Of a stretch of DNA of 64,000 nucleotides, positions 7,688-22,388 are shown in pieces. This stretch comes from Frigidibacter sp. ROC022 (lineage in GTDB: Bacteria > Pseudomonadota > Alphaproteobacteria > Rhodobacterales > Rhodobacteraceae). Numbering within the stretch: the stretch's first letter is position 1; every line of letters begins with the position of its first letter. The translations under genes and the position numbers were made by a program. Under the pieces are notes generated by a model. It searched no databases. It saw only the letters and a program-made list of their open reading frames with translations, and was not told the origin of the DNA. The stretch spans positions 62,001 to 126,000 of the forward strand of contig NZ_JANQDU010000004.1 of the NCBI RefSeq assembly GCF_024723735.1. Reading direction: 5' to 3'.

Positions 7688-7778
7688 TCGCCGCCGAAGG
7701 CTGGTCGAAGTCATGCCGGAACATGCACGGCAGGAGGCGGCGCCCGTGGCGACTCTGCGATCCGTTGCGCGCCGGACA

Positions 7779-7905
7779 GGTGAGCGGCCCGAAATCCTGT
7801 GCTCCGTGCAGTGACCTGTCGCAGCCGACCGAAACAGTCCGGCGCGCCAGGTGCATCACTTCACGCAACTATCCGGCATGGAATGCGTTGGCTGGGGCGG
7901 CAGGA
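7779..7905. repeat. 127-bp repeat copy 1, ending in tRNA-Gln 3' end (att-like)
   Basis: These 127 bases align without gaps to 18020-18146 with about 13 mismatches (roughly 90% identity). The right-hand 19 bases, GTTGGCTGGGGCGGCAGGA (7887-7905), are identical to the 3' end of the tRNA-Gln gene on the minus strand at 19892-19910, including its CCA. This is what an attachment-site core left by a tRNA-targeting integrative element looks like. No integrase gene is seen nearby. Confidence 0.75.
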
Positions 7906-8000
7906 CGCCTCGTCGGCCGCTTCTTTTCGATGAAGTTCCGACGGAAGCATGCCTTGGATGCGTATAGAGACAGAACTCAGAACAAGCCGAGGACCGCTCA

Positions 8001-8999
8001 ATGCCGAAAAAAGCAACGCAACACCGTCGCCGAGCGACACGATGCGGGATGCTTGCGCTTGCCCTGTTCGGCCCGACACTCGCTTGGTCACATGATGACG
8101 TCGATCATTGCGAGGCCGTGAAAGCCTCTGTGGAGGATGCAGGCTTTGCGGATCAGGTGACCGTCACCTGCGACGGCGACACGGCCTTCATCGTATCGGA
8201 TACCTATCCCGACCATGAGATGATGACTGGCATCGTCGGCACGAACGAGCAGATTCCGGTTCCCGCCAAGGATTACGCCGCGCCGATCCCGCTGGCGCCT
8301 GTTCTGGGCACGACGCCCCAGACCCGCGATGCGGCTCTGGGCGTGGCCGTGAACGGCGTGCCGATCTACGACTATACCGGCGGTGGCGAAATGACGGTGG
8401 AAGACCTCTACCACGCACAAACCCACCACGACACGCTGCTGACCCAGCAGCTTGATGCATGCGGCGGACATGCGGGGCGGGGCAACGACTACCACTATCA
8501 CGTCAAGCCGGTCTGCATGATCGAGCAGATGAAGAATGCCGGCGATGCCGCGATCATCGGCTGGGCCTATGACGGTTTTCCGATCTATGGCGACAACAAC
8601 CCCGACGGAACGCATATCGCGCTGGATGTTCTCGATGTCTGCAACGGGCAGCCCGACGCCACTTTCGGCTATCGCTATCATACCTCGGTTCAGGCCCCCT
8701 ATATCATTCAGTGCCTGATGGGGGAGGTTCCCGATATGCGCAACCTGCCGCGCGTCGCGCCGATGAAATCGGCAGGACTATTGGGTGGCGGTCAGGAATC
8801 GGGCGTGCCGCCCCGGGGCGGCGTGCAAGACCTCGTGTTCACACAAGACGCCGATGGCAGGCGCTCCATGGACTACACCTATGAGGGCGAGGCCTACTAC
8901 ATGCGCTACACGCCCGCAGAAACGCCGGACTGCTACGATTTCGAAACCCGCACCGTCACTGATGGCGGCCAGGTCAAGACAGGGGAATACTGCCGGTGA
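8001..8999 (+). CDS. secreted YHYH domain protein
   Basis: The 332-residue protein carries an N-terminal signal peptide (basic start, hydrophobic stretch, LAWS cleavage region). Near residue 160 it has GRGNDYHYHVKP, the motif that names the YHYH domain. GWAYDGFPIYGD and GYRYHTS follow, both conserved in the family, with several Cys residues suited to disulfides outside the cytoplasm. The function of YHYH proteins is not established. It starts 95 bases after the first tRNA-Gln repeat. The next gene, a PEBP pseudogene, overlaps its stop codon, so the two were once translationally coupled. Confidence 0.88.
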   Translation: MPKKATQHRRRATRCGMLALALFGPTLAWSHDDVDHCEAVKASVEDAGFADQVTVTCDGDTAFIVSDTYPDHEMMTGIVGTNEQIPVPAKDYAAPIPLAPVLGTTPQTRDAALGVAVNGVPIYDYTGGGEMTVEDLYHAQTHHDTLLTQQLDACGGHAGRGNDYHYHVKPVCMIEQMKNAGDAAIIGWAYDGFPIYGDNNPDGTHIALDVLDVCNGQPDATFGYRYHTSVQAPYIIQCLMGEVPDMRNLPRVAPMKSAGLLGGGQESGVPPRGGVQDLVFTQDADGRRSMDYTYEGEAYYMRYTPAETPDCYDFETRTVTDGGQVKTGEYCR

Positions 9000-9573
9000 A
9001 GCGCCCGTAGTCCACGCACATCGCGTAGGCACTGACCGGGTTCGCCTGGGTAGGCCCGGCTGCGGCGCAGGGTACGCCGATCCTGACCCGCCCCGCGTTT
9101 CCGGATTGTGGAGCTTTGCCTGACGATCTGAAATGCAAGCGCGACGACGGCGATGGCCTGTCGCCGCCGCAGGATTGGGCCGGCGTGCCAACCGGACCCA
9201 AAGCCTGGCGGTGATCACGTATCACTATCCCAGGGGCACCGTCGAAGGCGTCGACCCGCCCAGCCAATACTGGTTGTTGTGGAATATCCCTGCAGGCGCG
9301 AGGTCATCGTCGCGCGGCAACCCTCAGTCCATCGGCGACGAGGGCTCGGACAAGGACGAATAACCCACGGGCTACACCCCGCCCTGTTCTCCGGCACCGT
9401 GGTTTTCGTTCGCCAGCGGCCCGCAGCACCAATACTCTATCGAACTCTTCGCCTTGAATGCTTCGCTGACGACTGTGCAGGCACATGCCGACGTGCCGGT
9501 CGATTGGGCAACCTTGACGGTCGCGATGAAGGACAAGGCGATCGCAACGTCGCGGATATCCTTCTGGAGCTGA
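8996..9573 (+). pseudogene. decayed PEBP (YbhB/YbcL) family gene
   Basis: Pieces of a phosphatidylethanolamine-binding-like protein are readable in order. First comes a GTG overlapping the YHYH stop and a signal-peptide-like stretch broken by two TAG codons. Next come FPDCGALPDD and GLSPPQDWAGVPTGPKA in one frame. A one-base shift near 9205 leads to SQYWLLWNIPAGA and GNPQSIGDEG in another frame. An in-frame TAA at 9361-9363 is followed by GYTPPCSPAP and YSIELFALNA, both PEBP hallmarks. Three stops and one frameshift make function very unlikely. Loss of a secreted partner of the YHYH protein is the likely reading. Confidence 0.8.
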
Positions 9574-9619
9574 TCCGGCAATTCTGCCTGATAAGACATT
9601 GACAAACAAAGAAAATCTC

Positions 9620-10268
9620 ATGCGGGCAGCCCTGACAATCGGCATGATCCTGAACGCAACCACGGCATTGGCCGAACCCAAATCCGTCACTGCGGAGATC
9701 TGGGTCGACAACTGGTTCGAGATGCATGCAAACGGTGAAAAGGGTGATCGAGGATTCAGTGCCAATCACCACCGAGCGTTCCTTCAACGCCGAAACCACG
9801 ACCTTTGAGGCCGATCTGCCGATGACGATTGCGATCATGGCCAAGGACTTCAAGGAAAACGATAGCGGTCTGGAATACATCGGAACAAACCAGCAGCAGA
9901 CGGGCGACGGCGGGATGATCGCGCAGTTCCATGACGCCGTGACGGGCGATCTGATCGCTGCCACGGACAGCAACATGCGCTGTCTGGTCGTGCAGCATGC
10001 GCCGGTGGATCGCGCATGCGTGAAGGAAGCCAATCCTGTAGCGGGGCAGGGCGCTTGCGCCTTTGTCGAAACACCGGTCCCGGCCAACTGGACCGTGCCG
10101 GATTTTGACGACAGCGCCGGGCCAGCGGCGGCCGAACATACTGCTCGCGAGGTCGGATCGAAAGACGGATATGACGAGATTAACTGGGATCAGTCCGCGA
10201 AACTGACATGGAGCGATGATCTGGTGCTGGACAATACGTTGCTGTGCCGACTGGTCGTGACCGAGTGA
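9620..10268 (+). pseudogene. frameshifted secreted protein of unknown family
   Basis: Two overlapping frames together encode one protein. An N-terminal signal peptide (MRAALTIGMILNATTALAEP) and the segment EIWVDNWFEMHANGEK lie in the first frame. The rest, from about 9740 to the stop at 10266-10268, lies in the next frame (EDSVPITTERSFNAETTTF onward, about 170 residues with several Cys). A one-base change near 9740 would restore one reading frame of about 215 codons. I do not recognise the family. Its place after YHYH and PEBP genes suggests an exported protein from the same group. It may be a sequencing error rather than a true mutation. Confidence 0.65.
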
Positions 10269-10809
10269 ATGCGCAGCAAGTCAAGAACTCCGCGCCCTGA
10301 GGTGAACAACGAAACCGTAATGTTCCCAATGTGCGTTGACCTCCCCGCTGTCCGCGGCCATGCCATGGCCAGTATCTAAATGGCTGCTGGAAGTACTGCG
10401 CTGCCACGCGGGATTTTGCTGAACGGGGTTCACTCCGGCTCAGTATCGTGCATTTCGAGAAGACCGGGTCCGCCCCGAAAGTCCTGGGCGACGGCAGGGG
10501 CGGAAGGCAGGCGAGCGATGCGCATCGGGCATACGCCAGTTCCGCGGACAAGGCGGACCCGAGTAAACAGATGCGGAATCGTGGCAAGACAAGCGGACTC
10601 TGAAAGATCGCCGCCCTGAAAGGGGGCCGCTGCCCTCGGAGGTGCAGGGAAGGCATGCCGCGCTGCGCAAAGCACCGTGCCCGGGGGAGCGGAGGCAACC
10701 TCTTTCTCTTAAGGGAAGCGGATGACCAAACGTCATGGGAACGGAAATGCCACGCTCATCCGTATTACCCTCACTGTCCCAGTGCGTCCGTCCGAAAGGC
10801 CCATATTTC
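10269..10809. other. gap before macA, no gene seen
   Basis: This 540-base stretch has no supported gene. An in-frame ATG at 10735 could extend MacA by 25 residues, but that part lacks a signal sequence, so the region is better read as leader or promoter DNA. I see no clear terminator or operator. Confidence 0.4.
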
Positions 10810-11973
10810 ATGAAAAAAACGCGCATGTTGATTCCGCTCGCGTTGGCGTTGGCGGCGGTTGGGGGCTGGTTCTATTTCGCCGGTAGCGAAGACGTTGCGT
10901 CCCCGACGACGGCTGCCGTCACCCGCGCCACGGTGGAGGAGACGGTGCTGGCGTCGGGCACGATGGAGGCCAAGCAGCTGGTAAGCGTTGGCGCTCGGGT
11001 CTCGGGGCAGATCGAGACGCTGGCAGTCGCGCTTGGTGACGAGGTCGAGCAAGGCGACCTGATCGCGCAGATCGACAGCCAGGACCAGGAGAACGACGTA
11101 TTGACGGCGAAGGCGAACCTGGCCAACATCAAGGCCCAGATTGCCGCCAAGAATGCCGGATTGGTCAAGGCTGAGCGCGTTCTGGAGCGGCAAATGAAGC
11201 TGATGACCTCGGACTATGTCTCGAAGGAGGACCTTGAGTCCGCGCAGGCCGATGTCGATGTCTACAAGGCCGAACTAGACGCGCTGGCAGCACAGAAGGC
11301 GAGCGTCGAGGTCACAGTCTCGACTGCGCAGATTGCGCGTGAGCGGACCCAGATCACCGCACCGATCTCGGGCACGGTCGTTGCAATCGTCAATGACGAG
11401 GGCCAGACGGTGAACGCCTCGCAGAGCGCGCCGACAATCGTCAAACTTGCCGAGTTGGACCAGATGGTGGTGAAGGCGGAAATATCCGAAGCCGACGTGG
11501 TGCACGGAATTCCCGGCCAGCAGGTGGTCTTTACTATCCTGGGAGAACCTGATCACCCATTTTCCGCCACCGTGCGCGACGTCGAACCTGCGCCTCCGGA
11601 AATCGAGGACAGCGACACGATTTCGACCGACAAGGCGATCTATTACAACGGCTTGCTGGAAGTGGACAATCCCGACCATCTGCTGCGCATCGGGATGACC
11701 GCCGAAGTCTCGATCATCCTCGACAAGGTCGAGAACGTGCTGACCGTCCCGGCCTCGGCGCTTGTCAAGGGGCCGCAGGGCTACACGGTGAAGCTATTCG
11801 ATCCGGTCACCGGCGTCACCAGGGCGCAGGCGGTCGAGGTGGGGCTGAACAACAAGGTCATTGCCGAAATCAAATCGGGTTTGAGCGAAGGCGATCTGGT
11901 GGTCACGGGCACTGCCGTCGCCGCTGCGGCGTCGTCCCAGAGCAGTACCCGCATGCCTCCAATGGGCCTGTGA
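10810..11973 (+). CDS. macA: MacA-like periplasmic adaptor of an ABC efflux pump
   Basis: The 387-residue protein begins with a short basic start and one membrane anchor (LIPLALALAAVGGWFYF). A biotinyl-lipoyl half (SVGARVSGQIETLAVALGD), a coiled-coil hairpin at about residues 95-190, the second lipoyl half (RTQITAPISGTVVAI) and a beta-barrel/membrane-proximal domain follow. This is the HlyD/MacA layout. It should link the MacB ABC permease to an outer-membrane TolC-type channel for export of macrolides, peptides or similar compounds. The macB gene follows after two bases. No TolC gene is in the window. Confidence 0.92.
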   Translation: MKKTRMLIPLALALAAVGGWFYFAGSEDVASPTTAAVTRATVEETVLASGTMEAKQLVSVGARVSGQIETLAVALGDEVEQGDLIAQIDSQDQENDVLTAKANLANIKAQIAAKNAGLVKAERVLERQMKLMTSDYVSKEDLESAQADVDVYKAELDALAAQKASVEVTVSTAQIARERTQITAPISGTVVAIVNDEGQTVNASQSAPTIVKLAELDQMVVKAEISEADVVHGIPGQQVVFTILGEPDHPFSATVRDVEPAPPEIEDSDTISTDKAIYYNGLLEVDNPDHLLRIGMTAEVSIILDKVENVLTVPASALVKGPQGYTVKLFDPVTGVTRAQAVEVGLNNKVIAEIKSGLSEGDLVVTGTAVAAAASSQSSTRMPPMGL

Positions 11974-11975
11974 CG

Positions 11976-13921
11976 ATGGGAGACCCCCCTGATTTCCGCG
12001 CGCGGGATCTCGCGCGACTTCCAGGCCGGCGACGAAACGATCACCGTCCTGCGCGACGTCGACGTTGACATCTGGCCAGGCGAACTGGTGGCGATCATCG
12101 GCGCTTCCGGCTCGGGTAAATCGACGCTGATGAACATCCTCGGCTTCCTCGACCGCGCCAGCGCGGGCAGTTATCGCTTTAACGGTCAGGATGTGAGCAA
12201 GCTCGACCCCGATCAGCTTGCCCAGCTGCGGCGCGAGCATTTCGGCTTCATCTTTCAGCGCTATCAGCTGCTGCCCGATCTCGACGCGGTGGGCAATGTC
12301 GAGGTGCCCGCGATCTATGCCGGCGAAGGCCGCGCGGCCCGACATGCGCGCGCCGCCGATCTGCTGGGCCAACTCGGCCTGGCCGAGCGGCTGGACCACC
12401 GCCCCGGCGAGCTTTCGGGGGGACAACAGCAGCGGGTCTCGGTGGCGCGCGCCCTCATGAATGGGGGAGAGGTGATCCTGGCCGACGAACCGACCGGTGC
12501 GCTCGATACGACAAGCTCGAAGGAGTTGATCGATCTGCTGCTGGAACTGAACAACAAGGGCCACACGGTCGTCATGGTCACTCACGACCCGGAAGTCGAC
12601 CAGCACGCGCATCGCACGATCGAGATCAGTGATGGGCGGATCGTCTCGGATACGAAGACCGCTCCCGAAGATATCGCCAATGTCGAACGGCTGGATCGCG
12701 CGCCTGCGAAGCAGCGGCCAGGGGCCGCGCTGTTGCGACTGCGCGAGGCCCTTGACATGTCGCTCAAGGCTCTGCTTGCGCATCGGGTGCGTTCGGTGCT
12801 GACGATGCTGGGGATCATCATCGGCATCGCCTCGGTGGTGCTCGTGGTCGCGCTCGGGACTGGCACGCAGGAGAAGGTGCTCGACAACATCTCCTCGCTC
12901 GGGACCCGCACGATCACGGTGCGCTCGGGATCTGGCTTCGGCGCGCGCGACGTCAACAAGGTGCAAACGCTGATGCCGTCGGATGCCGATGTGCTGGCGC
13001 TGCAACCCTATGTCGATGGCGCCTCGCCCTCGGTCGCGACCAAGAGCACGGTTGTCTATCGCAGCACCTCCTCCGACGCCTCGATCAACGGGGTGGGCGG
13101 GGATTATTTCCAGGTCCACAACTACATCACCGTGAATGGCGCCACCTTCGGTTCGGAGGATGTCAAGAACCGCGCCCAGGTCGCGGTGATCGACGAACAC
13201 GCGCGACACCTTTTTTGATGCCGATGTCGATCCGGTGGGCAAGGTACTGCTGCTGGGCGGCGTGCCGGTGCGGGTAATCGGTGTGGTGCGCTCGAGCGGC
13301 GCGAGCTTTGGGCCGGAATTGCTCAATGTCTGGGTGCCTTATACCACGGTGATGACGTGGATTTTCGGGCAGAATTTCCTTGATAGCGTCGAGGTGCGGG
13401 TAAGAGATGACTACGACACCTCGCTTGCCGAGGCCGAGATCAACGCCCTGCTGACCACCCGCCACGGCACCAAGGATTTCTTCCTTTCAAACTCGGACAC
13501 GATCCGCGATACGATGACCTCGACCACGGAAACGCTGACCTTGCTGGTGGCGATGATCGCTGTGATCTCGCTGATTGTCGGGGGGATCGGGGTGATGAAT
13601 ATCATGCTGGTATCCGTTACCGAGCGCACGAAAGAGATCGGCGTGCGCATCGCGATCGGGGCGCGGCGGTCGGATATCGTGGCGCAGTTCCTGATCGAGG
13701 CGGTGCTGGTTTGTCTGACTGGCGGCGTGCTGGGGATTGCCGGCGCGCTGATCGGCGGGCAGATGGTCGGCTACTTCTCGTCCGATGTGCGGCTGAGCTT
13801 CTCGGTCACGGCGATCGTGGTGGCGTTCCTGTCTTCGACCCTGATCGGGATCACCTTCGGCTACCTGCCCGCGCGTTCGGCGGCCTGGCTCGACCCGGTG
13901 GTGGCGCTCAGCCGCGAGTAA
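11976..13921 (+). pseudogene. macB: MacB ABC efflux ATPase/permease, frameshifted twice
   Basis: A full MacB is spread over three frames. The ABC ATPase carries Walker A GASGSGKST, signature LSGGQQQR and Walker [12 protein letters not shown]. It is followed by the first membrane helix, a periplasmic domain, and in another frame the last three helices with GGIGVMNIMLVSVTERTKEIG and a C-terminus LDPVVALSRE typical of MacB. The first shift lies in a C6 run (11984-11989): one C fewer joins the ATG at 11976 to the ATPase frame. The second lies in a T6 run (13211-13216): one T fewer joins the two permease parts. Both being homopolymers, a sequencing error or slippage is as likely as true loss of function. 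Confidence 0.85.
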
Positions 13922-14108
13922 TCGAAACGGGGCGAGGAGACGGGTAGGGAGCCGGTTCGAGGGTATCTCGATGCCTGGTCCGGAGCGCCCTCCGGTGACC
14001 AATCTTACCACCGGGCATTAGGAGGCCGTCGTCGCTGGCGGGCAAGGCTTCGCATTCAAGCCGTTCTGTGAGTAACCTGCTCCCCTGCGCGTCCACGTTT
14101 CTGGGTTG

Positions 14109-14129
14109 GCTCTGCTCACGGGGCAGAGC
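14109..14129. terminator. hairpin between convergent macB and dctM
   Basis: GCTCTGC and GCAGAGC form a 7-bp stem around a 7-base loop in the gap between two converging genes. There is no T-run, so a terminator role is only inferred from position. Confidence 0.3.
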
Positions 14130-14163
14130 AGGGTGGAGCCCCGCGCCCCGGACTGGCCCGCGG

Positions 14164-15447
14164 CTAATAGAAGCGTGACGGCAGGTCCAGCGCCAGGCCG
14201 GGAAACAGCATCAACAGTAGAACCATCGCTATGAGGGCCGCCACGAAGGGGAGAGCGCCAAGAATGACGTCATCGACATTGCCGGTGCGCCGCACGCCCT
14301 GGATGACATAGAGATTCAACCCGACCGGCGGGGTGATCAGCGCAGTCTCGATCAACAGCATCAGGATGATGCCGAACCAGACCGGATCGTAGCCCAGCGA
14401 GAATACCACCGGCGCGATGATCGGGATCGTCGTGATCATCAGCGTGAGGGTTTCGAGGAACAGTCCCAGAACGAGGTAGAGCCCCACGATCATCAGAAGC
14501 GAAATCGCTGGCGGATACTCGAGACCTGTCACGAAATCACTGACCGCCTGCGGCAACCCGATCGTGGCCAGCACGAGGTTGAGGAAGAAGGCCGCAACGA
14601 CGATCAGCATGATCATGGAGCTTGTCTGCATCGAGCCCTCGATCGACTCGGCGAGTATTCTCAACGTCAGCTTGCGTCTAGCCATAGCCAGAATCAGGGA
14701 ACAGACCACACCGAGAGCGGCGGATTCCGTGGGCGTTGCGAAGCCGGCATAAATCGAGCCGATCACGACCAGAAAGATGAAGGCGGGGGGCAGTAGGTCG
14801 GGGAGGCTGCGCAGCCGATCGCTCCAGGAGAACCGGAGCCGGCGCCCGCCGAACTCCGGCCGGATCAGGCAGGCGAGGATCACCGTTGCACTGAACAGCG
14901 CCGCCAGCACCAGCCCCGGGACAATGCCGGCGAGATAGAGCTCGGGGATCGAGGTGTCGGTCAGGGCGCCATAGATGATGATGTTGATCGAGGGAGGAAT
15001 GAGGATGCCCAATGTGCCGCCCGAGGCGAGCGTTCCCAAGAACAGCTTCCGGTTGTAGCCATTCCGCTCCATCTGCGGAATCGCGACTGTGCCGATCGTC
15101 GCGGCGGTGGCGACCGTTGATCCCGAGATCGCGGCAAATGTCGCACAGGCGCCGATATTGGAATGCATGAGCCCGCCGGGCAGCCAGGTGAGCCAGGTCG
15201 AGACGGACCGATAGACCGCGTCCGCGATGCCGCTGCGCAGCAGGATTTCTCCCATGAGCACGAACAGGGGAATTGCCACCAGCAGGGAATCGGTCGAGGC
15301 CGACCAGGCGATATCGCCCATCGCGCGGTGCAGCGGCATGAAGGAATAGAGCTGCTCGAGGATAAGCCCCAGCAGGCCAAGCGCTGCCGCCACCGGGATC
15401 GACAGGCCGATCAGCAGCAACAACAGCAGCAGGGATGTCTTAAGCAT
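14164..15447 (-). CDS. dctM: TRAP transporter large permease (DctM)
   Basis: The 427-residue protein is hydrophobic through about twelve segments and has typical DctM features, among them ASGGTLGILIPPSINIIIYGALT and LPFVAALIAMVLLLMLFPGLAL near the end. It is the main membrane subunit of a TRAP importer that uses the sodium gradient to take up organic acids or similar solutes. It is the last gene of the dctP-dctQ-dctM operon and follows dctQ after 17 bases. All three genes look intact, unlike the neighbouring macB and pseudogenes in this segment. Confidence 0.94.
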   Translation of the reverse strand: MLKTSLLLLLLLIGLSIPVAAALGLLGLILEQLYSFMPLHRAMGDIAWSASTDSLLVAIPLFVLMGEILLRSGIADAVYRSVSTWLTWLPGGLMHSNIGACATFAAISGSTVATAATIGTVAIPQMERNGYNRKLFLGTLASGGTLGILIPPSINIIIYGALTDTSIPELYLAGIVPGLVLAALFSATVILACLIRPEFGGRRLRFSWSDRLRSLPDLLPPAFIFLVVIGSIYAGFATPTESAALGVVCSLILAMARRKLTLRILAESIEGSMQTSSMIMLIVVAAFFLNLVLATIGLPQAVSDFVTGLEYPPAISLLMIVGLYLVLGLFLETLTLMITTIPIIAPVVFSLGYDPVWFGIILMLLIETALITPPVGLNLYVIQGVRRTGNVDDVILGALPFVAALIAMVLLLMLFPGLALDLPSRFY

Positions 15448-15464
15448 TTTGTCTGGCGCTCTTT

Positions 15465-16049
15465 CTATCGGCTGCTTTCGGCGGGCTGGTTTGGCGGCAA
15501 TTCGTCATCCATGGTTCGGCTGCCTGCGAGTTCCGACACGCGGTCTCGGTCGCCCTTCAGCAGCGCATGGAGGCAGGCGACAGCCAAGAGCACGCTCGAC
15601 AGCGAGAACTGGATCATGCCGATCAGCCATAGCCCTTGCGGCAGCCAGAGCGGTATCGCCAGCGTCGACGTCGAGATCGCCGAGAGGTTCAGCGAATCCT
15701 GCAAGACGCGCCAGCAGAACCAGGTCAGGATCACCGAGAAGGTCGCAATCGAGACGATGCCCAAGCAGTCGAGCCAGGCCCGTGGCCCGGACGGAAGCCG
15801 GGTATAGAGTGCATCGACCCGCACATGCGCTTTTGCGTGAAGCGTGTAGGAGAGCGCCCAGGTGGAACTGATCGCGAGCGCATAGCCCGAAAGCTCGTCC
15901 GTCCCGCCGGTCGAGATGTTGGCGAACCTTCGAAGCAGGATTTCTGCGGTGATGAGCAGCGCGATCAATACGATCAGGCTGCCGCCGGTGCGGATGGCGA
16001 GGCGTGACATCGCCTCGCTCAGTCCAATGAGTCCGCGATGGCGATCCAT
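15465..16049 (-). CDS. dctQ: TRAP transporter small permease (DctQ)
   Basis: This 194-residue protein has four predicted membrane helices, with the conserved start of the small TRAP subunit (LIALLITAEILLRRF, then TGGTDELSGYALAISSTWALSY). It pairs with DctM in the inner membrane. It starts seven bases after dctP. Sequence conservation of DctQ is low, so the assignment leans on topology, motif and operon position. Confidence 0.88.
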   Translation of the reverse strand: MDRHRGLIGLSEAMSRLAIRTGGSLIVLIALLITAEILLRRFANISTGGTDELSGYALAISSTWALSYTLHAKAHVRVDALYTRLPSGPRAWLDCLGIVSIATFSVILTWFCWRVLQDSLNLSAISTSTLAIPLWLPQGLWLIGMIQFSLSSVLLAVACLHALLKGDRDRVSELAGSRTMDDELPPNQPAESSR

Positions 16050-16056
16050 CCGCGGA

Positions 16057-17121
16057 TTACTCGGTGGGCGCGCTCAAACCGATCGCTGCGCCGGCGGTTT
16101 CGTTCCAGCGCGCAGCGCATTCCGAACCACAGCGCTCGGCCCATTTCGGAATCACAACGTCCTGCATGATGGTGCGGAGCTTCTCGTAGTCGCCCTCGGG
16201 GATCTTGCTCAGCGTCATGTGCGCGACATTGCCGCCGACGCATTCGCCACCAGTGTTGCAGGCAATCCCTTCGGCCGTTTCAGAGCGTCCCGACTCCCAG
16301 GCAGAATCCTCCCAGGGGCCGATCTCCTTTTCGAGCAGGGCCCGCACCTCGGGGTCGAGGCCGTTCCAGAAATCGAGATTTGCCGCAACGAAGGTGATCG
16401 CCCAACTGATCGGAAGCGGGTAGAGATTGGTCGTGGCCTGCTGCCATTTGGCCAGGTTTCCGCTGAGCGCCCCGGCGATGGCGCAATCGACGACGCCCTT
16501 CTCCAGTGCCGGAACCACCTCGCCAAAGGGCATGCCCACCGGCGTGCCGCCGAGCGCCTCGATCATGTCGCTTTGCGAGCGGCCCGAAGTGCGCACCTTC
16601 AGGCCCTTGAAGTCCTCAAGGCTGTCGATGGGCGCGTTACAATAGCTGATCTGCGCGTGATAGGGGATGATGGCGAGCAGCTTGACGCCGTATTCCTTTT
16701 CGAAGACCTCGGCCAATACCGGCTTGTAGGCGTCCGAAATCCGGTGCGCCTCGTCGATGTCGCGGGTGATCCCGGCCAGGTCGACGGCTTCGGCTTCGGG
16801 GATATCCCCACCGACGTAGGACAGCAGCGTGGCGCTCATGTCGAGCACGCCGTTGCGCAGCAGGCGCAGAATCTCGTCGCCCTTCAGGCCCAGTTCGGTG
16901 AAGGGCTGCACCTTGACGGTGATCGCGCCGCCGGACTTCTCGGAGATGGTGTCTCCCCAAAAGGGCTTTTCGACCTTGTTGTAAAGCGTCAGGTTTCCCC
17001 AGGTTCCGACATAGGTGAATTCTGTCTTGGGCAGGTCCTGGGCCTGAGCGGCGCTGGTGCCGATGGCCGCGGCGCACAGCACAGCGGCGCGGCACAGGCC
17101 GGTGATCGACGAAGTTCGCAT
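16057..17121 (-). CDS. dctP: TRAP transporter substrate-binding protein (DctP)
   Basis: The 354-residue protein has a clear signal peptide (AVLCAAAIGTSAAQAQ) and the DctP fold. FKGLKVRTSGRSQSDMIEAL contains the conserved Arg that holds the ligand carboxylate, and GMPFGEVVPALEKGVVDCA is the family motif. The protein captures a carboxylate-like solute in the periplasm; the substrate is unknown. The start at 17121 is chosen for its signal peptide and a GGGAG ribosome site; the open frame continues upstream without similarity. A promoter-like sequence lies 58 bases upstream. Confidence 0.92.
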   Translation of the reverse strand: MRTSSITGLCRAAVLCAAAIGTSAAQAQDLPKTEFTYVGTWGNLTLYNKVEKPFWGDTISEKSGGAITVKVQPFTELGLKGDEILRLLRNGVLDMSATLLSYVGGDIPEAEAVDLAGITRDIDEAHRISDAYKPVLAEVFEKEYGVKLLAIIPYHAQISYCNAPIDSLEDFKGLKVRTSGRSQSDMIEALGGTPVGMPFGEVVPALEKGVVDCAIAGALSGNLAKWQQATTNLYPLPISWAITFVAANLDFWNGLDPEVRALLEKEIGPWEDSAWESGRSETAEGIACNTGGECVGGNVAHMTLSKIPEGDYEKLRTIMQDVVIPKWAERCGSECAARWNETAGAAIGLSAPTE

Positions 17122-17179
17122 GGCTTTCTCCCGTTGACGGTACCGGCCATTCTCGCGAGCCGGCGACTCGATAACAGGG

Positions 17180-17207
17180 AGTATACCTTGTTTTATTTTC
17201 GGCTCAA
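17180..17207 (-). promoter_or_regulatory. sigma70-like promoter of dctPQM
   Basis: On the minus strand TTGAGC and TATACT are separated by 16 bases of AT-rich DNA, unusual in this high-GC window. The -10 box ends 58 bases before the dctP ATG. Position and match to the -35/-10 consensus support it; no operator could be assigned. Confidence 0.55.
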
Positions 17208-17491
17208 TGCGCAAGTGGTCGCATGTGAATTCCTGTCGCCAGACCAACGGTTCGCGTGGGACAGCCGGGATCAATGCGGTCGGCCGAAGACTGAATCGCG
17301 CCGGGTTGGCCGAGGGATGGTTCGTATCTATTAGTGCGATCATGTTCTCAGAACCCATGGTCGCGTAGCAATCCATCCTGCCTTCGGCAGTCGGGATGCT
17401 CCCGATCGGCTCGTGGGCCAAGGGCATCTCTATCCAATGCCGATCGTCGAACGATGTGCGATGGAGAACCGGATCGAGTCCATTGATGCCG

Positions 17492-18008
17492 TCAAAGGTG
17501 CCGTCTGATCTCCGACACGGCATCCGCAACACCCATCTTGGCCGTGTCGATCTGGACATCGGCCGTGGCCCACGGTGTGTAGTCCCGGGCAAGGACGTCT
17601 TGCCAGTCAGGTTTGCAAAGGCCGGGCACATCGATGTCGCGTTCTTCGACACGCGCACGATGCAGGTTCAAATCAGAGCAACGCGTCTCTACACCGAGCA
17701 AACCTGCATCAGCTCGCTTCGCCGCATCCGCGAAAATCCGGCGTGTCATGTCCCACGGGTTTATGCAGTCAACGATCACTGTATGTCCCAGCCAGAGGTT
17801 GGAGGCCGCAAGGGCAGCCGCCATATGAATGATAGCTCTCCGGGCCAATCTCCCGATCAGGATCATTGGCCCAGATCGCGGCGTCGATCTCGTCAATACG
17901 TATATAGAACGCCCCTGTCGCAACCGACAGTGCCCTTGCAATGGTGCTCTTGCTGGTTCCCGGCAAGCCCGCGAATGAAATCAGGACAGCCACAGTTAAC
18001 CCTAGCAT
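17492..18008 (-). pseudogene. frameshifted P-loop kinase (AAA family ATPase)
   Basis: Two overlapping minus-strand frames make up one small kinase. The first gives VAVLISFAGLPGTSKSTIAR and a RIDEIDAAIW segment. After a one-base shift near 17825 the second gives AAALAASNLWLGHTVIVDC, then ETRCSDLNLHRARVE and PDWQDVLARDYTPW, which fit P-loop kinases of about 170 residues. The Walker A reads GLPGTSKST, where the family has GTGKST, so Ser replaces the key Gly. The frameshift and this change both argue for a dead gene. It abuts the second tRNA-Gln repeat. Confidence 0.72.
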
Positions 18009-18019
18009 ACCTCCGTCGT

Positions 18020-18146
18020 GGTGAGCGGCCCGACGTCATGCGCTTCGTGCAGTGACCTGTCACAGCCGACCGCAACAGTCCGGCGTGCCGAGTGCATCAC
18101 TTCACGCAACTGTCTGGCATGGAATGTGTTGGCTGGGGCGGCAGGA
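18020..18146. repeat. 127-bp repeat copy 2, ending in tRNA-Gln 3' end (att-like)
   Basis: This is the partner of 7779-7905 (about 90% identical, ungapped). Its last 19 bases (18128-18146) equal the minus-strand 3' end of the tRNA-Gln at 19894-19968. With copy 1 it brackets a 10.2-kb segment, and with the tRNA it brackets a 1.75-kb segment. Confidence 0.75.
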
Positions 18147-18548
18147 GTCCTTGCACGACCTTGAACCGGATCGCTTACCGTCAGTGGTGGGCTCGACTGG
18201 GGCAGTTGGTGGGGCCTTTGGGGGGTGTTGAGGGGCCTCTCCGGGCCTCTGACGGGGGGCTGGTGGTGTTCGGAAACTCCTGTGCAATGCTCCGAGTTCA
18301 ATATGGTAGCTTACAGGCCTCTCTGAGCCCACTGGCGGCTTAGTGACTTGCTGGGACTGGTGCTGTGGATTGGACGATGAGCTGCTGTGCTTGAAGATTC
18401 CGCCTTGCGCATCGAACTGCCACGAGATGCCATATTCTGAACGCCGCAAAGGCGAACTCGACCAGCTTGCCGCGGGAGAGCACCGGGTTTGACCGAATCC
18501 CTTGGTTGCCCCTAGGGTAGCAGACTGGGAAAGTTGGAGACAGCCGAC
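18147..18548. other. leader region of the homocysteine methyltransferase
   Basis: About 400 bases without a supported gene. I looked for the conserved cores of SAM or SAH riboswitches before the methyltransferase and saw none that I could defend. A promoter-like pair is listed separately. Confidence 0.35.
18489..18518 (+). promoter_or_regulatory. possible promoter of the homocysteine S-methyltransferase gene
   Basis: TTGACC and TAGGGT are 18 bases apart and end 30 bases before the chosen ATG. The -35 box is good, the -10 box weak. Confidence 0.35.
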
Positions 18549-19514
18549 ATGCGCGCAGACATTCTCCCTCCCCGTTCAGATGACCGCCTATATCTGACCG
18601 AGGGCGGCATCGAGACAGAGATCATGTACAAGGACGGCTTCGAATTGCCGCACTTCGCGATGTTTCCACTGCTTGATGATCCTGCGGCGCTGGAAGCCAT
18701 GAAACAGATGTGGAGGCGCATGCTTGGCGTCGCAGCTGAAACCGGATTCTGTGTCGTGTTGAACGGGCTGGACTATCGGGCAAGTCCGGATTGGGGACGA
18801 TTGCTGGGCTACTCACCGGAAGGTCTGGCGACGATCCAGCATCGGTGCATCGATTTTCTCCGTGACCTCGCCCGAGAATTCGAGAACTCAATCGAGAAGA
18901 TATACATATCCGGAACGGTTGGGCCACGTGGCGATGCCTACTCTTTGAATCGAACGATCACCGCCGACGAGGCGGAAGAGTATCATTCCGTTCAGTTGGA
19001 AACGTTGAGGGAGGCAGGCGTAGATTTGGCTTGGGCGATGACATTCAACAATGTCCCCGAGTCAGTTGGGGCAACGCGTGCGGCGAATGCGTTGGGTGTT
19101 TCATTTGCAATGGGACTGACGCTTGACAGCAGTTGCAAGTTGAAATCCGGGCCAACCTTGGCACAAGCGATCGTCGAGATAGACCAGCAAACCAGCTTCG
19201 GGCCTGAGTTTTACGCCTGCAACTGTTCGCATCCACTGGAATTCGAGCCAGCCCTCGATGGCGGGGCCTGGCAGGAAAGACTGCGCTGTATCCGACCGAA
19301 CGCCTCTGCGATGGAGAAGATCGCACTTTGTAAGCTTGGGCACCTCGAGGACGGAGACCCGGCAGAACTTGGTCAGCAAATGGCGGACGTCGCGCAACGC
19401 CTGCCACACATGGATATCTTTGGAGGCTGCTGCGGAACTGATGAACGTCATCTACGCGAGATTGCTTACCGTGTGCGCAACATCCGAAGGAAAATGGTCC
19501 GCGAGCAAGAGTAG
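18549..19514 (+). CDS. homocysteine S-methyltransferase family protein
   Basis: The 321-residue protein has the (beta/alpha)8 homocysteine-binding domain: LTEGGIETEIMYKDG at the N-terminus, then the three zinc ligands in NCSHP and GGCCGTDERH near the C-terminus. Enzymes of this family move a methyl group to homocysteine from S-methylmethionine, betaine or similar donors. The length matches the stand-alone MmuM-like type without a cobalamin domain. The donor is unknown. The ATG at 18549 follows a GGAG; a TTG at 18534 is also in frame. It is alone between an att-like repeat and tRNA-Gln, and its codon use seems less GC-rich than the core genes. Confidence 0.9.
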   Translation: MRADILPPRSDDRLYLTEGGIETEIMYKDGFELPHFAMFPLLDDPAALEAMKQMWRRMLGVAAETGFCVVLNGLDYRASPDWGRLLGYSPEGLATIQHRCIDFLRDLAREFENSIEKIYISGTVGPRGDAYSLNRTITADEAEEYHSVQLETLREAGVDLAWAMTFNNVPESVGATRAANALGVSFAMGLTLDSSCKLKSGPTLAQAIVEIDQQTSFGPEFYACNCSHPLEFEPALDGGAWQERLRCIRPNASAMEKIALCKLGHLEDGDPAELGQQMADVAQRLPHMDIFGGCCGTDERHLREIAYRVRNIRRKMVREQE

Positions 19515-19893
19515 GACGCAGAGATTAACACGATGGAAGTCCATGCCGGGGCCGTATCTGCCGCTAGCATGGCTCTGCGCTGAGGTCGGCTTTGGGTGAC
19601 GTGTCTGGCAGAGCACCAAAGGCCCAGCCACTTGGGTCGCCTGATCTGATAAGAAATGCAAAGCAAACCTGACCCCCGACAATTCCGAAGAGCCACCGGA
19701 GATCGTTTCAGTTCGGTAGTCCCCGCTTCAACACGTACCCAGCCAACCAGCCGAAGTAGTGGTCCGCATCGCTGAACCCTTGCGCCTGGGCAGCAAGGTC
19801 CTCTGCCCTCTGTCAGGGGACTGGGGCAGTTTCCGGGGCACTCTGGATTCCGCTCTGGGGCCAGTTCCACCAAACCTTCAGCTTTCAGGAGGT
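19515..19893. other. gap between methyltransferase gene and tRNA-Gln
   Basis: No gene is supported here. The stretch is less GC-rich than the core and may be the edge of an integrated element. Confidence 0.35.
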
Positions 19894-19968
19894 TGGCTGG
19901 GGCGGCAGGATTCGAACCTGCGAATGCCGGTACCAAAAACCGGTGCCTTACCACTTGGCGACGCCCCA
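19894..19968 (-). tRNA. tRNA-Gln (anticodon TTG)
   Basis: A complete 75-base cloverleaf is readable on the minus strand. The acceptor TGGGGCG pairs with CGCCCCA, the anticodon loop is TTTTTGG with TTG as anticodon, the T-loop is TTCGAAT, and CCA is encoded. The 3' end is copied at 7887-7905 and 18128-18146. Confidence 0.95.
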
Positions 19969-20065: not shown

Positions 20066-21751
20066 TCAGGCGGTTACCTGCTCCTTCAGGATCGACGCGG
20101 TCAGGGAAATCATCAGATAGATCCCCGAGAATACCAGGAAGGACAGCAGGGTGTTCTCGAACTTGCGCGGATAGGTCGGCTCGTCCGGGGCGACCGGGCT
20201 GACGCCTTCGGTGATGTAGCGGACCTGCTTGTTGGCCTCGATCCGCGCGGTTTCCAGTTGCTGCAGGGCGGCCTGCATCATCATCTGCCGGGTCGCGAGA
20301 TCGGTTTCGGCCATCTTCAGCTCGCCGGAGATGCGCGCCAGCGAGGCCGAACCGTCGGCGTTCTTGGTCAATTGCGAGCGCAGTTCGGCGACCAGCGCCC
20401 GCAGCCGGTCGATATCGCCCTGGACACCATCGACCCGGGCCTGGTTGGGGCGGGCGTTGTCCTGGAGCTGTTTCAGCTCCAGTTCCTTCTGCCGCAGGAG
20501 TGTTTCGAAATTGGTGATCTGGCCCATCAGCGCCGCGGTTTCCGAGACCGGGTCCAGCACGCCCAGACGTTCCTGCAGTTCCAGCACCCTGTCCTGGGCG
20601 GCCTGCATCTTGGCCTCGGCAGCCTCGTAGCTCTCCTTGGCGCCCTTCATCTGGTCTTCGCGCAGGCGTTGCGACATCTGGTCCACCTGCTCTTCGGCAT
20701 ATCCGATCAGGGCCTCGGAGAACTCCTCCGAAGTCTGCGGATCGGCTGCGATCACCTCCATCTTGATGATCCCTTCCGAGGGGTCGAAGCCGATCTTCAC
20801 ATGGCTCTGGTAGATCTTGTAGGCGTCCTCGTTCGTGGCATCGGGCGGCAGGCGCTTGATCGGGTCGATCGATTCCTGGCTGAAATGCGCCTTGAACCCG
20901 TGCTCCCGGTCCAGCCGCTGCATCGCCTCGCGCGACTGCAGGTAACTCTGCACGGTGATCGAGTCCTGCGTGGTGGCGAACTGGGTGCCGGAGAACAGGC
21001 TGCCGAGGCTTCCGGGCGTGGTGGCGTCGGCCTTCTGGATCAGGAACTCGGATTTGGTCGCATAGAGCGGGGTGGCGATGTTGTAGTAGTAGAAGCCCGC
21101 GATCAGCGTCGGCAGCAGCACGAAGGCCGCCAGACGGCTCAGCAGCAGCATCAGCCGGCGGCGGCGGCGGCGCGCGATGTCGCGCTGGATGTTGAAGATT
21201 TCCTGGGCCCGCGCCTCTTCGCCCATCATCTTGGCCGAGGGCAGCTGCGGTTTCTGGATGGTTTGCGGCAGATTGGGCCCCGCAGGCTTCAGCTGCCCGC
21301 CGCCGCCCGCCGGCTTGCCGTCGGCAATCACCAGCTCCAGCATGGTCGAACGTTCGAACGGGTCGATGCCCTGCTCGCGCAAGAGCCGCACCGCGTCGAA
21401 ATCGGATGTCGGCGCGAGTCCGTGCTTCTGGGCCACCCGCCGGGCCATCCGCAACTGGCGCCCGGTCAGGCCTTCACGGCGGATCGCATCCAGCGCCGCG
21501 TCGCTGGCCACTTCCTCGGGCTCGGCGATATTGGCGTTCTGGGCGGGGGTGAACTTCTGGTCGCCGAAGCCGTCGTCATGGTTCGCGAATGCGGTGTCGG
21601 AGTCGAAATCCGGGGCCTGGGTCCGTGCCGCCGCGGCGCCGCCGCCGCTGCCGGGGGCCTTCGTGGTGCCGACATTTGCCGGGGCCGGATCGCCGGCCAG
21701 AGAGGCGGAGCGGCGAATGCGGAACTTCTTGGCCTTAGGCTTGGTAGTCAT
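20066..21751 (-). CDS. kpsE: capsule polysaccharide export inner-membrane protein (KpsE type)
   Basis: The 561-residue protein has a long, low-complexity cytoplasmic N-terminus (about 190 residues, rich in Ala, Pro and Gly), then an Arg-rich stretch and a first membrane helix near residues 200-220. A periplasmic region with long coiled coils (about 340-480) and a last membrane helix near 530-550 follow. This is the polysaccharide co-polymerase layout of KpsE/CtrB/BexC, which bridges the ABC exporter and the outer-membrane channel. It is longer than the usual 380 or so residues because of its N-terminus. It overlaps kpsT by 17 bases; kpsM is not here. Confidence 0.9.
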   Translation of the reverse strand: MTTKPKAKKFRIRRSASLAGDPAPANVGTTKAPGSGGGAAAARTQAPDFDSDTAFANHDDGFGDQKFTPAQNANIAEPEEVASDAALDAIRREGLTGRQLRMARRVAQKHGLAPTSDFDAVRLLREQGIDPFERSTMLELVIADGKPAGGGGQLKPAGPNLPQTIQKPQLPSAKMMGEEARAQEIFNIQRDIARRRRRRLMLLLSRLAAFVLLPTLIAGFYYYNIATPLYATKSEFLIQKADATTPGSLGSLFSGTQFATTQDSITVQSYLQSREAMQRLDREHGFKAHFSQESIDPIKRLPPDATNEDAYKIYQSHVKIGFDPSEGIIKMEVIAADPQTSEEFSEALIGYAEEQVDQMSQRLREDQMKGAKESYEAAEAKMQAAQDRVLELQERLGVLDPVSETAALMGQITNFETLLRQKELELKQLQDNARPNQARVDGVQGDIDRLRALVAELRSQLTKNADGSASLARISGELKMAETDLATRQMMMQAALQQLETARIEANKQVRYITEGVSPVAPDEPTYPRKFENTLLSFLVFSGIYLMISLTASILKEQVTA

Positions 21752-22388
21752 AAAGCTGCTTCGCCTCTTCCAGAGAATCGAACTGATAGAGCTGCCCGTC
21801 GCGCAGCACCGCCGCCCGCTGGCAGAACTTCTCGAGCGTGTCGGCGGAATGCGAGACCACGATCACCGTCGCACTTTCCAGCCGCTCGCGCAGGATGTTG
21901 CCCGCCTTGCGGTTGAACTCGACGTCGGTCGAGGACGGCATCCCCTCGTCAATCAGGTAGATATCAAACTCCAGGGCCAGAAGAAGCGCAAAGGAGAAGC
22001 GGGACTTCATTCCGGCGCTATAGGTGCCCAGAGGCATGTCGTAATACTCCCCCAGGCCGCAGAGCCAGCGGGTGAAGGCTTCCATGTAGTCCGGGTCGAT
22101 TCCGTAGAGCTGGGCGATGTAGCGGGCGTTCTCGCGCGCGGTATGGCGGCCGACGACGCCCCCCATGAAGCCCAGCGGAAACGAGACTTTCGAGGTCCGG
22201 CGCACCTCGCCTTCGTCGGGCTTCTCGAGCCCGGCCATCATGTTGACCAGGGTCGTCTTGCCGGTGCCGTTCGGCGCCAGAATGCCCAGCGACCGGCCCA
22301 GCTCGACGCGAAACGAGGCGCGATCGAGGATGACCTTGCGCTGGCTGCCCGTCCAGAAGGACTTGCTGACATTAATGAACTCGAGCAT
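21735..22388 (-). CDS. kpsT: capsule polysaccharide ABC transporter ATP-binding protein (KpsT)
   Basis: The 217-residue ATPase has Walker A APNGTGKTTLVN, the degenerate signature TYSAGMKSRFSFALLLALE and Walker B IYLIDEGMPSS, all as in KpsT-type ATPases for group 2 capsules. It powers export of a lipid-linked polysaccharide through KpsM. The gene overlaps the start of kpsE by 17 bases, showing translational coupling. No kpsM lies upstream; the next gene in that direction is nhaD. Confidence 0.93.
   Translation of the reverse strand: MLEFINVSKSFWTGSQRKVILDRASFRVELGRSLGILAPNGTGKTTLVNMMAGLEKPDEGEVRRTSKVSFPLGFMGGVVGRHTARENARYIAQLYGIDPDYMEAFTRWLCGLGEYYDMPLGTYSAGMKSRFSFALLLALEFDIYLIDEGMPSSTDVEFNRKAGNILRERLESATVIVVSHSADTLEKFCQRAAVLRDGQLYQFDSLEEAKQLYDYQA

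Follow-up and report, generated by a model that had tools for sequence, protein, structure and literature searches.

Elements that lack integration genes and lie in tandem at the 3' end of an RNA gene have been described previously. The passages of PMC5704250 on cis-mobilizable elements (CIMEs) describe them as flanked by attachment sites, devoid of integration genes, and arranged in tandem at one tRNA 3' end, and as having lost genes from an integrative and conjugative element (ICE) or an integrative and mobilizable element (IME). The ssrA islands of Dehalococcoides, in the part of PMC3146451 that deals with them, are tandem islands with a 20-bp repeat of the RNA gene 3' end, some of which have no integration genes, and with extra conservation around the repeats. 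Integron cassettes and clusters of attC sites lacking integron-integrases (CALINs) are named in the relevant portion of PMC11389934, and a section of PMC8224337 places tRNA-Gln among the prophage integration sites of the Rhodobacteraceae. Here we analyzed a 64-kb stretch (the window) of the 4.4-Mb genome of Frigidibacter sp. ROC022, in which a tRNA-Gln gene is followed by two tandem segments, B (1.75 kb) and A (10.2 kb). From sequence comparisons, B is probably a nonautonomous integrative element that was placed between an earlier segment A and the tRNA gene by an integrase supplied in trans.

Copies of the tRNA-Gln 3' end and segment B

The features on which this reading depends were as follows.

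19894-19968, minus strand: tRNA-Gln(TTG), the target gene, in which the final 17 nt (19894-19910) form the attachment core, common to copies in other genera
18147-19893, no strand: element B, a very probable integrase-less insertion of 1.75 kb; GC content of 0.577, measured on 18152-19891
19822-19840, minus strand: left-end repeat pair of B (TGCCCC + TGCCCCA, direct, 12 nt apart), located 53 nt past the tRNA CCA
18534-19514, plus strand: homocysteine S-methyltransferase-like gene (PF02574), 326 aa from the first TTG, the only sizeable recognized cargo of B
18198-18215, minus strand: right-end repeat pair of B (GCCCCA + TGCCCCA), 69 nt before the distal core
18128-18146, minus strand: core copy 2, at the distal end of B, 19 nt identical to the tRNA-Gln 3' end
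18020-18127: X copy 2, the 108 nt after the core
7887-7905, minus strand: core copy 1, 19 nt identical to the tRNA-Gln 3' end
7779-7886: X copy 1, the 108 nt after the core, adjoining the left flank

The initial annotation had placed the 19-base 3' end of tRNA-Gln at three positions and had noted 108 adjacent bases shared by the first two copies at about 90% identity. All three copies were confirmed where they had been placed and in identical orientation, and the two copies of X were ∼88% identical. The direct repeat of 132 nt (7779-7910 and 18020-18151) was 89% identical; in the 127-nt repeat there were 13 mismatches between copies, with none in the 19-nt tRNA-derived part. A search for many copies of this 127-bp repeat away from tRNA genes detected only 2 matches in the whole genome, those of the window. 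An 18-mer of the tRNA-Gln 3' end had three exact matches in the genome and three further matches at 2 mismatches, none of which was within a tRNA or tmRNA gene, while the backwards control had 1+1 matches at up to 2 mismatches. A chance match of tRNA bases was rejected because the 18-mer was exact at only three places in 4.4 Mb, as judged against this control. The 17-nt core spans the 3' strand of the T arm, the acceptor strand, and CCA, and an unbiased comparison of the window with a Celeribacter locus (L014) gave a shared part that also starts 17 nt from the tRNA end.

Segment B had a GC content of 0.577 compared to 0.659 on either side of the segments. Its methyltransferase-like protein matched Pfam PF02574, while the NCBIfam matches were under their cutoffs. 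Homologues at 1e-40 were present in 90 of 394 family genomes, the best other one having 61% identity; among 29 such loci elsewhere (hit plus up to 1.5 kb on each side), none had the core and one had a repeat pair. The TGCCCC pair pattern occurred only twice in the window (both strands, 64 kb), at the two ends of B and in the correct orientation. As a Markov-1 model predicted 0.37 ± 0.71 pairs per window (30 runs) compared to the 2 observed, it is the position rather than the number of pairs that carries weight. B has the duplicated 17-nt core, a left pair at 53 nt (family range, 51 to 54 nt), and a right pair at 69 nt (family range, 69 to 70 nt). Neither a tyrosine integrase (PF00589) nor a phage gene was recognized in B, and one gene was recognized among its open reading frames, with no search aimed at transfer genes having been made. 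Overall, an origin of segment B as an inserted element is very probable.

End signatures, occupied and empty sites, and a candidate integrase

Family searches were performed on overlapping sets of 147 and 394 genomes, both including this one (G000, the only Frigidibacter genome in the comparison set), and on 248 genomes for the right-end pattern. In 22 of 30 loci from relatives, a kpsE-like gene was followed by tRNA-Gln downstream on the same strand, and several of the other 8 loci were short contigs; a kpsT-like gene was also a neighbor. The corresponding genes of the window were as follows.

20066-22388, minus strand: two polysaccharide-export-like genes, which in many relatives also neighbor tRNA-Gln and which mark the chromosomal side

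We take these to be kpsE-like and kpsT-like, names for which there was no profile support. The sequence after tRNA-Gln varied between genera. Because tRNA-Gln follows the kpsE-like gene in 22 of the 30 loci while the downstream content differs, the kpsE side is backbone and the opposite side variable. Comparison of the left-flank, A, and B genes with 31 relatives' loci (L011 included) gave only weak matches to ABC and TRAP transporters, and EamA, MacA, and three more left-flank genes had no match at 1e-5 in L011 to L041.

A degenerate pattern for the 17-nt tRNA-Gln 3' end was present in 348 of 394 family genomes, mostly once and in 49 at least twice. The multicore loci fetched had two classes of copies. 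In class one (G033 and G229), ∼45 nt of the tRNA is repeated in tandem; in class two, which includes the window, copies and tRNA have barely more than 17 nt in common; the pattern itself starts there, but the preceding bases of the copies do not match the tRNA. The class one arrays, in the small genomes G033 (L081-L082) and G229 (L083), contain five and three tandem ∼45-nt copies of the tRNA-Gln 3' half, spaced 1.3 to 15.6 kb apart with recurring inner-end sequences, and represent another type of cassette array.

Many class two loci had two TGCCCC-like repeats ∼12 nt apart just inside their ends. The spacing of these pairs was tallied in 27 stretches (388,075 bases) with 46 cores, of which 20 were in tRNAs and 26 were copies; pairs up to 130 nt before a core were allowed, and distances were not used in choosing loci. 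A pair preceded 15 of the 26 copies (9 genomes, window included), invariably at 69 or 70 nt, and in 8 other genera, elements at this core had the same right-end spacing. Several of the elements at this site in other genera that show the family distances are integrase bearing. A pair followed 24 of the 46 cores, at 51 to 54 nt in 22 and at 64 to 65 nt in 2, with one more (L011) at 132 nt. No pair in the 388,075 bases was >200 nt from any core. The exact right-end pattern was found in 7 of 248 family genomes, this one included, and the reversed pattern in none. At least two single motifs were present in the first 150 nt after tRNA-Gln in 11 of 63 loci (window included), a set in which some loci had been picked for their multiple cores and the genome G334 was represented twice, compared to 114 of 13,913 other 150-nt windows.

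An occupied and an empty site were apparent in Celeribacter. In Celeribacter sp. PS-C1 (L014), 5.3 kb separates tRNA-Gln from a second, 21-nt copy. The sequence after this second core was 90.9% identical over 298 nt to the stretch that follows the tRNA of Celeribacter sp. HF31 (L015), with synteny of the flanking genes; no such L015 match was found after the tRNA of L014 itself. A match of L013 to the same L014 sequence had 74% identity over 178 nt. L014 and L015 thus appear to be a filled and an empty site for the same kind of insertion as B. The inserted genes of L014 include a glycosyltransferase (Pfam).

A likely family integrase (DUF6538 plus PF00589) adjoins tRNA-Gln cores in several genera, and in G244 a 433-aa protein of this type adjoins the family ends. 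Homologues of the G244 integrase were detected in 21 of 394 family genomes. For 22 integrase regions, a count that leaves out hits in G281 and G038:C11 and two more in G180, a core was nearby in 9 of 11 with ≥57% identity to the G244 enzyme compared to 1 of 11 below this level; G056 (a 3.9-kb contig) and a G382 fragment, neither with a nearby core, and G388, in the opposite direction, were exceptions. Two or more cores were present in 9 of the 21 genomes with an integrase hit compared to 40 of 373 others (Fisher P = 3e-4); the multicore counts and integrase lists for the 394 genomes were compiled by eye from tables. No PF00589 match was detected in the G073 and G250 elements, and tblastn with the G244 integrase gave no match in the L014 insert. 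An integrase of its own appears not to be required of every family member. A limited literature search on DUF6538 found no paper.

The statement in the initial annotation that no integrase is left held for the integrase group linked to the tRNA-Gln site, as the genome had no homologue of the G244 enzyme at E ≤ 1e-30. It had also suggested looking elsewhere for a tyrosine recombinase with tRNA-Gln specificity; five tyrosine recombinases were found in the genome (two XerC/D-like, a label assigned by reading, one on contig C12, and two at the start of contig C16), all only distantly similar to the G244 enzyme. The two on C16 (495-1055 and 3991-4446; L049) lie at the left edge of the contig, ∼58 to 61 kb left of the window. 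Because B has the family end signals while the genome lacks the likely family integrase, we infer that B is an integrase-less, single-gene member of the family, with a methyltransferase-like cargo, that would depend on an integrase in trans.

Origin of the two segments

A DUF6538/PF00589 tyrosine integrase may use the TGCCCC pairs as arm-type binding sites. Such an enzyme, coming from another element or a prophage since lost, would have recombined a circular form of B with the tRNA core, restoring the tRNA. Segment A would probably have been first, adjoining the chromosome, and B would have been inserted later between A and the tRNA, as a single-gene hitchhiker of the CIME kind.

Several observations weigh against this account. 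A strict pair was absent before 11 of the 26 core copies, namely, copy 1 of the window, two copies each in G299 and G341, and one each in G038, G383, G334, G250, G073, and L014. G299 and G341 are both integrase bearing; G250, G073, and L014 had imperfect pairs only; and in L014, the filled-site example, only the left end had a strict pair. An AT-rich type of element (G412/G074/G185) had no TGCCCC pairs. The motif was first noticed on loci that were later tabulated, and its discovery and the tally are therefore not independent. Segment A had no TGCCCC pairs at its ends, both pairs of the window being in B, and no full-length match to X was found in other family genomes among the up to five (147 genomes) and up to two (394 genomes) candidates scored per genome. 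In these searches, the 132-nt repeat matched one other genome of the 147 set and a 311-nt stretch around it matched six others of the 394 set, in both cases as pieces of 25 to 36 nt only. A 19-mer of X had no match in viral contigs. Plasmid searches gave no match with 7700-8000 and one 69% match, outside X, with 17700-18530.

The initial annotation had derived both segments from site-specific integration at tRNA-Gln. For the 1.75-kb segment this was well supported by paired ends at family spacing and by the parallel with the filled and empty Celeribacter sites; for the 10.2-kb segment, with neither end signature, it is only plausible.

7906-18019, no strand: segment A, with genes for a YHYH protein, MacA, a frameshifted MacB, the TRAP transporter DctMQP, and a putative kinase fragment; GC content of 0.618 (on 7911-18019); no end repeat pairs

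The decay attributed to genes of A was borne out for macB, in which MacB_PCD is split over two frames, and the reading frames supported a frameshifted secreted protein near 9.7 kb, whose longer piece had no profile match. The kinase fragment (17769-18008), termed a P-loop kinase, had a subthreshold AAA_33 match and nothing above threshold, and neither Pfam (two pieces) nor NCBIfam (one piece) confirmed the PEBP label. A had no PF00589 match. Both cores bounding A are followed by X, and a single, simple integration does not account for these shared 108 bp. Most likely, A was inserted at this core at an earlier time and its ends have since decayed or are those of another system, or else it is a composite that two such events left behind.

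It is a real possibility, although not a probable one, that A is chromosomal DNA from a related strain. X would then be the native sequence downstream of tRNA-Gln, and each of its two copies would represent a different lineage, the two having been united through homologous recombination or through a circle that formed between two cores. This would account for the presence of X after both cores with differences at 13 of 127 nt and for an A without either PF00589 or repeat pairs, and the left flank does run into chromosomal genes, among them trpA and ychF (identified by reading). However, X was found in no other genome searched, and in the 31 loci nothing near tRNA-Gln convincingly matched the genes of A or the left flank, such that neither parent lineage was seen. 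Rather unlikely is a second element family at the same target, of which A would be a member and X the left end, with the DNA left of 7779 starting another tandem element. Cores in the G299, G341, G383, and G244 arrays are indeed followed by the same or a similar left-end sequence, and other end types occur at the site (e.g., in G412, G074, and G185), but there was no further core leftward, the genome matches with <2 mismatches being the three known ones, and an X-like left end was not found in the other genera searched. An origin of the 127-bp unit as a common interspersed repeat or a local duplication, with incidental tRNA-like bases, is highly improbable: the 108 nt beyond the tRNA part are common to both copies, but an interspersed repeat was rejected because the genome has only two, and, moreover, the tRNA match stops near the same tRNA position as do cores of other genera and the repeat pairs of B stand at family distances from the core.

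Other elements at tRNA-Gln and comparison with known systems

Elements at this site carried varied cargo. Twelve proteins chosen by eye at site loci, with no frequency implied, were scanned with PADLOC; 7 had strong matches, 1 had weak Cas4 matches, and 4 had none. The strong matches were to Thoeris ThsB and ThsA (G308), an AbiP2 reverse transcriptase (G244), a dCTPase (G073), Septu PtuA and PtuB (L188), and a type IIG-like enzyme (G299) that Pfam assigned to type ISP. The Septu genes of L188 have a 614-aa integrase in their vicinity, as well as a tRNA-Gln-like core that is followed at 52 nt by a left-end pair. The left-end pattern was detected in three viral contigs, while neither the right-end pattern nor relatives of the G244 integrase were detected in such contigs. 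In the IMG/VR contigs L187 and L189, tRNA-Gln is followed by the left-end pair at 53 nt; L187 encodes tail-fiber, minor tail, tape-measure, and head-tail adaptor proteins according to PHROGs, and the phage-like character of L189 was judged by reading only.

A conserved protein of ∼510 aa (506 aa in L099:1018-2538) is present near the left end of several elements, with homologues in L140, L141, L144, and L085 and a version in two pieces in G073. It had no match in Pfam, PADLOC, NCBIfam, or PDB sequences, and none in this genome in a search performed without a positive control. In G412, G185, and G074 (L088-L091 and L086-L087), the same core was occupied by another type of element, whose right ends are AT rich and whose cores are 15 to 66 kb apart. 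Inverted cores occurred in many multicore arrays, most with an integrase gene (L092, L093, L094, L140, L141, L144, L153, and L154), and in five arrays (G244, G036, G341, G388, and G038) were ∼2.5 to 3.5 kb from tRNA-Gln. Some modules between inverted cores had left ends on both sides and others had right ends on both sides, which suggests inversion or head-to-head insertion.

A tentative and somewhat doubtful extension of these results is that tRNA-Gln anchors an integron-like trans system in the Rhodobacteraceae, with minimal cassettes (one gene, 1.75 kb) that carry a core and two spaced pairs and are collected by the integrases of defense elements and temperate phages sharing the same code. 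If so, the inverted cores of integrase-bearing arrays would mean that the same enzyme also flips modules. A core with pairs at fixed distances would provide a sequence rule for recognizing integrase-less elements without strain comparison. One docking site, and perhaps one integrase group, would link a single-gene cassette, antiphage elements, and prophage-like contigs of one family. The movement of integrase-less islands has so far mostly been inferred and is directly testable here. A limited literature search encountered neither the spacing rule nor its sharing by a single-gene cassette, defense elements, and phage-like contigs.

Compared to integron cassettes and CALINs, to the extent that these are treated in the portion cited, the locus is alike in having small cargo units stacked at one place with a recombinase in trans; the sites of B are, however, tRNA-derived cores with repeat pairs, attC and IntI not having been searched for. 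The Rhodobacteraceae prophages have the tRNA-Gln site in common with B, and the L187 and L189 contigs carry the left-end pair, whereas the prophage account in the cited section of PMC8224337 describes neither the repeats nor integrase-less cassettes and B contains no recognized phage gene. The layout of the ssrA islands, as outlined in that part of PMC3146451, resembles the tandem segments of the window, but those islands involve a serine recombinase and ssrA, in contrast to a candidate DUF6538 tyrosine integrase and tRNA-Gln here. B differs from CIMEs, as presented in the passages cited, in its size of 1.75 kb, its one recognized gene, and end repeats that look intact; a conjugative parent was not identified, although no search aimed at conjugation genes was made. 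B and CIMEs are alike in having flanking att-like sites, no integration genes, and a tandem position at a tRNA 3' end, and in these respects B appears to fit a CIME in an accretion tandem.

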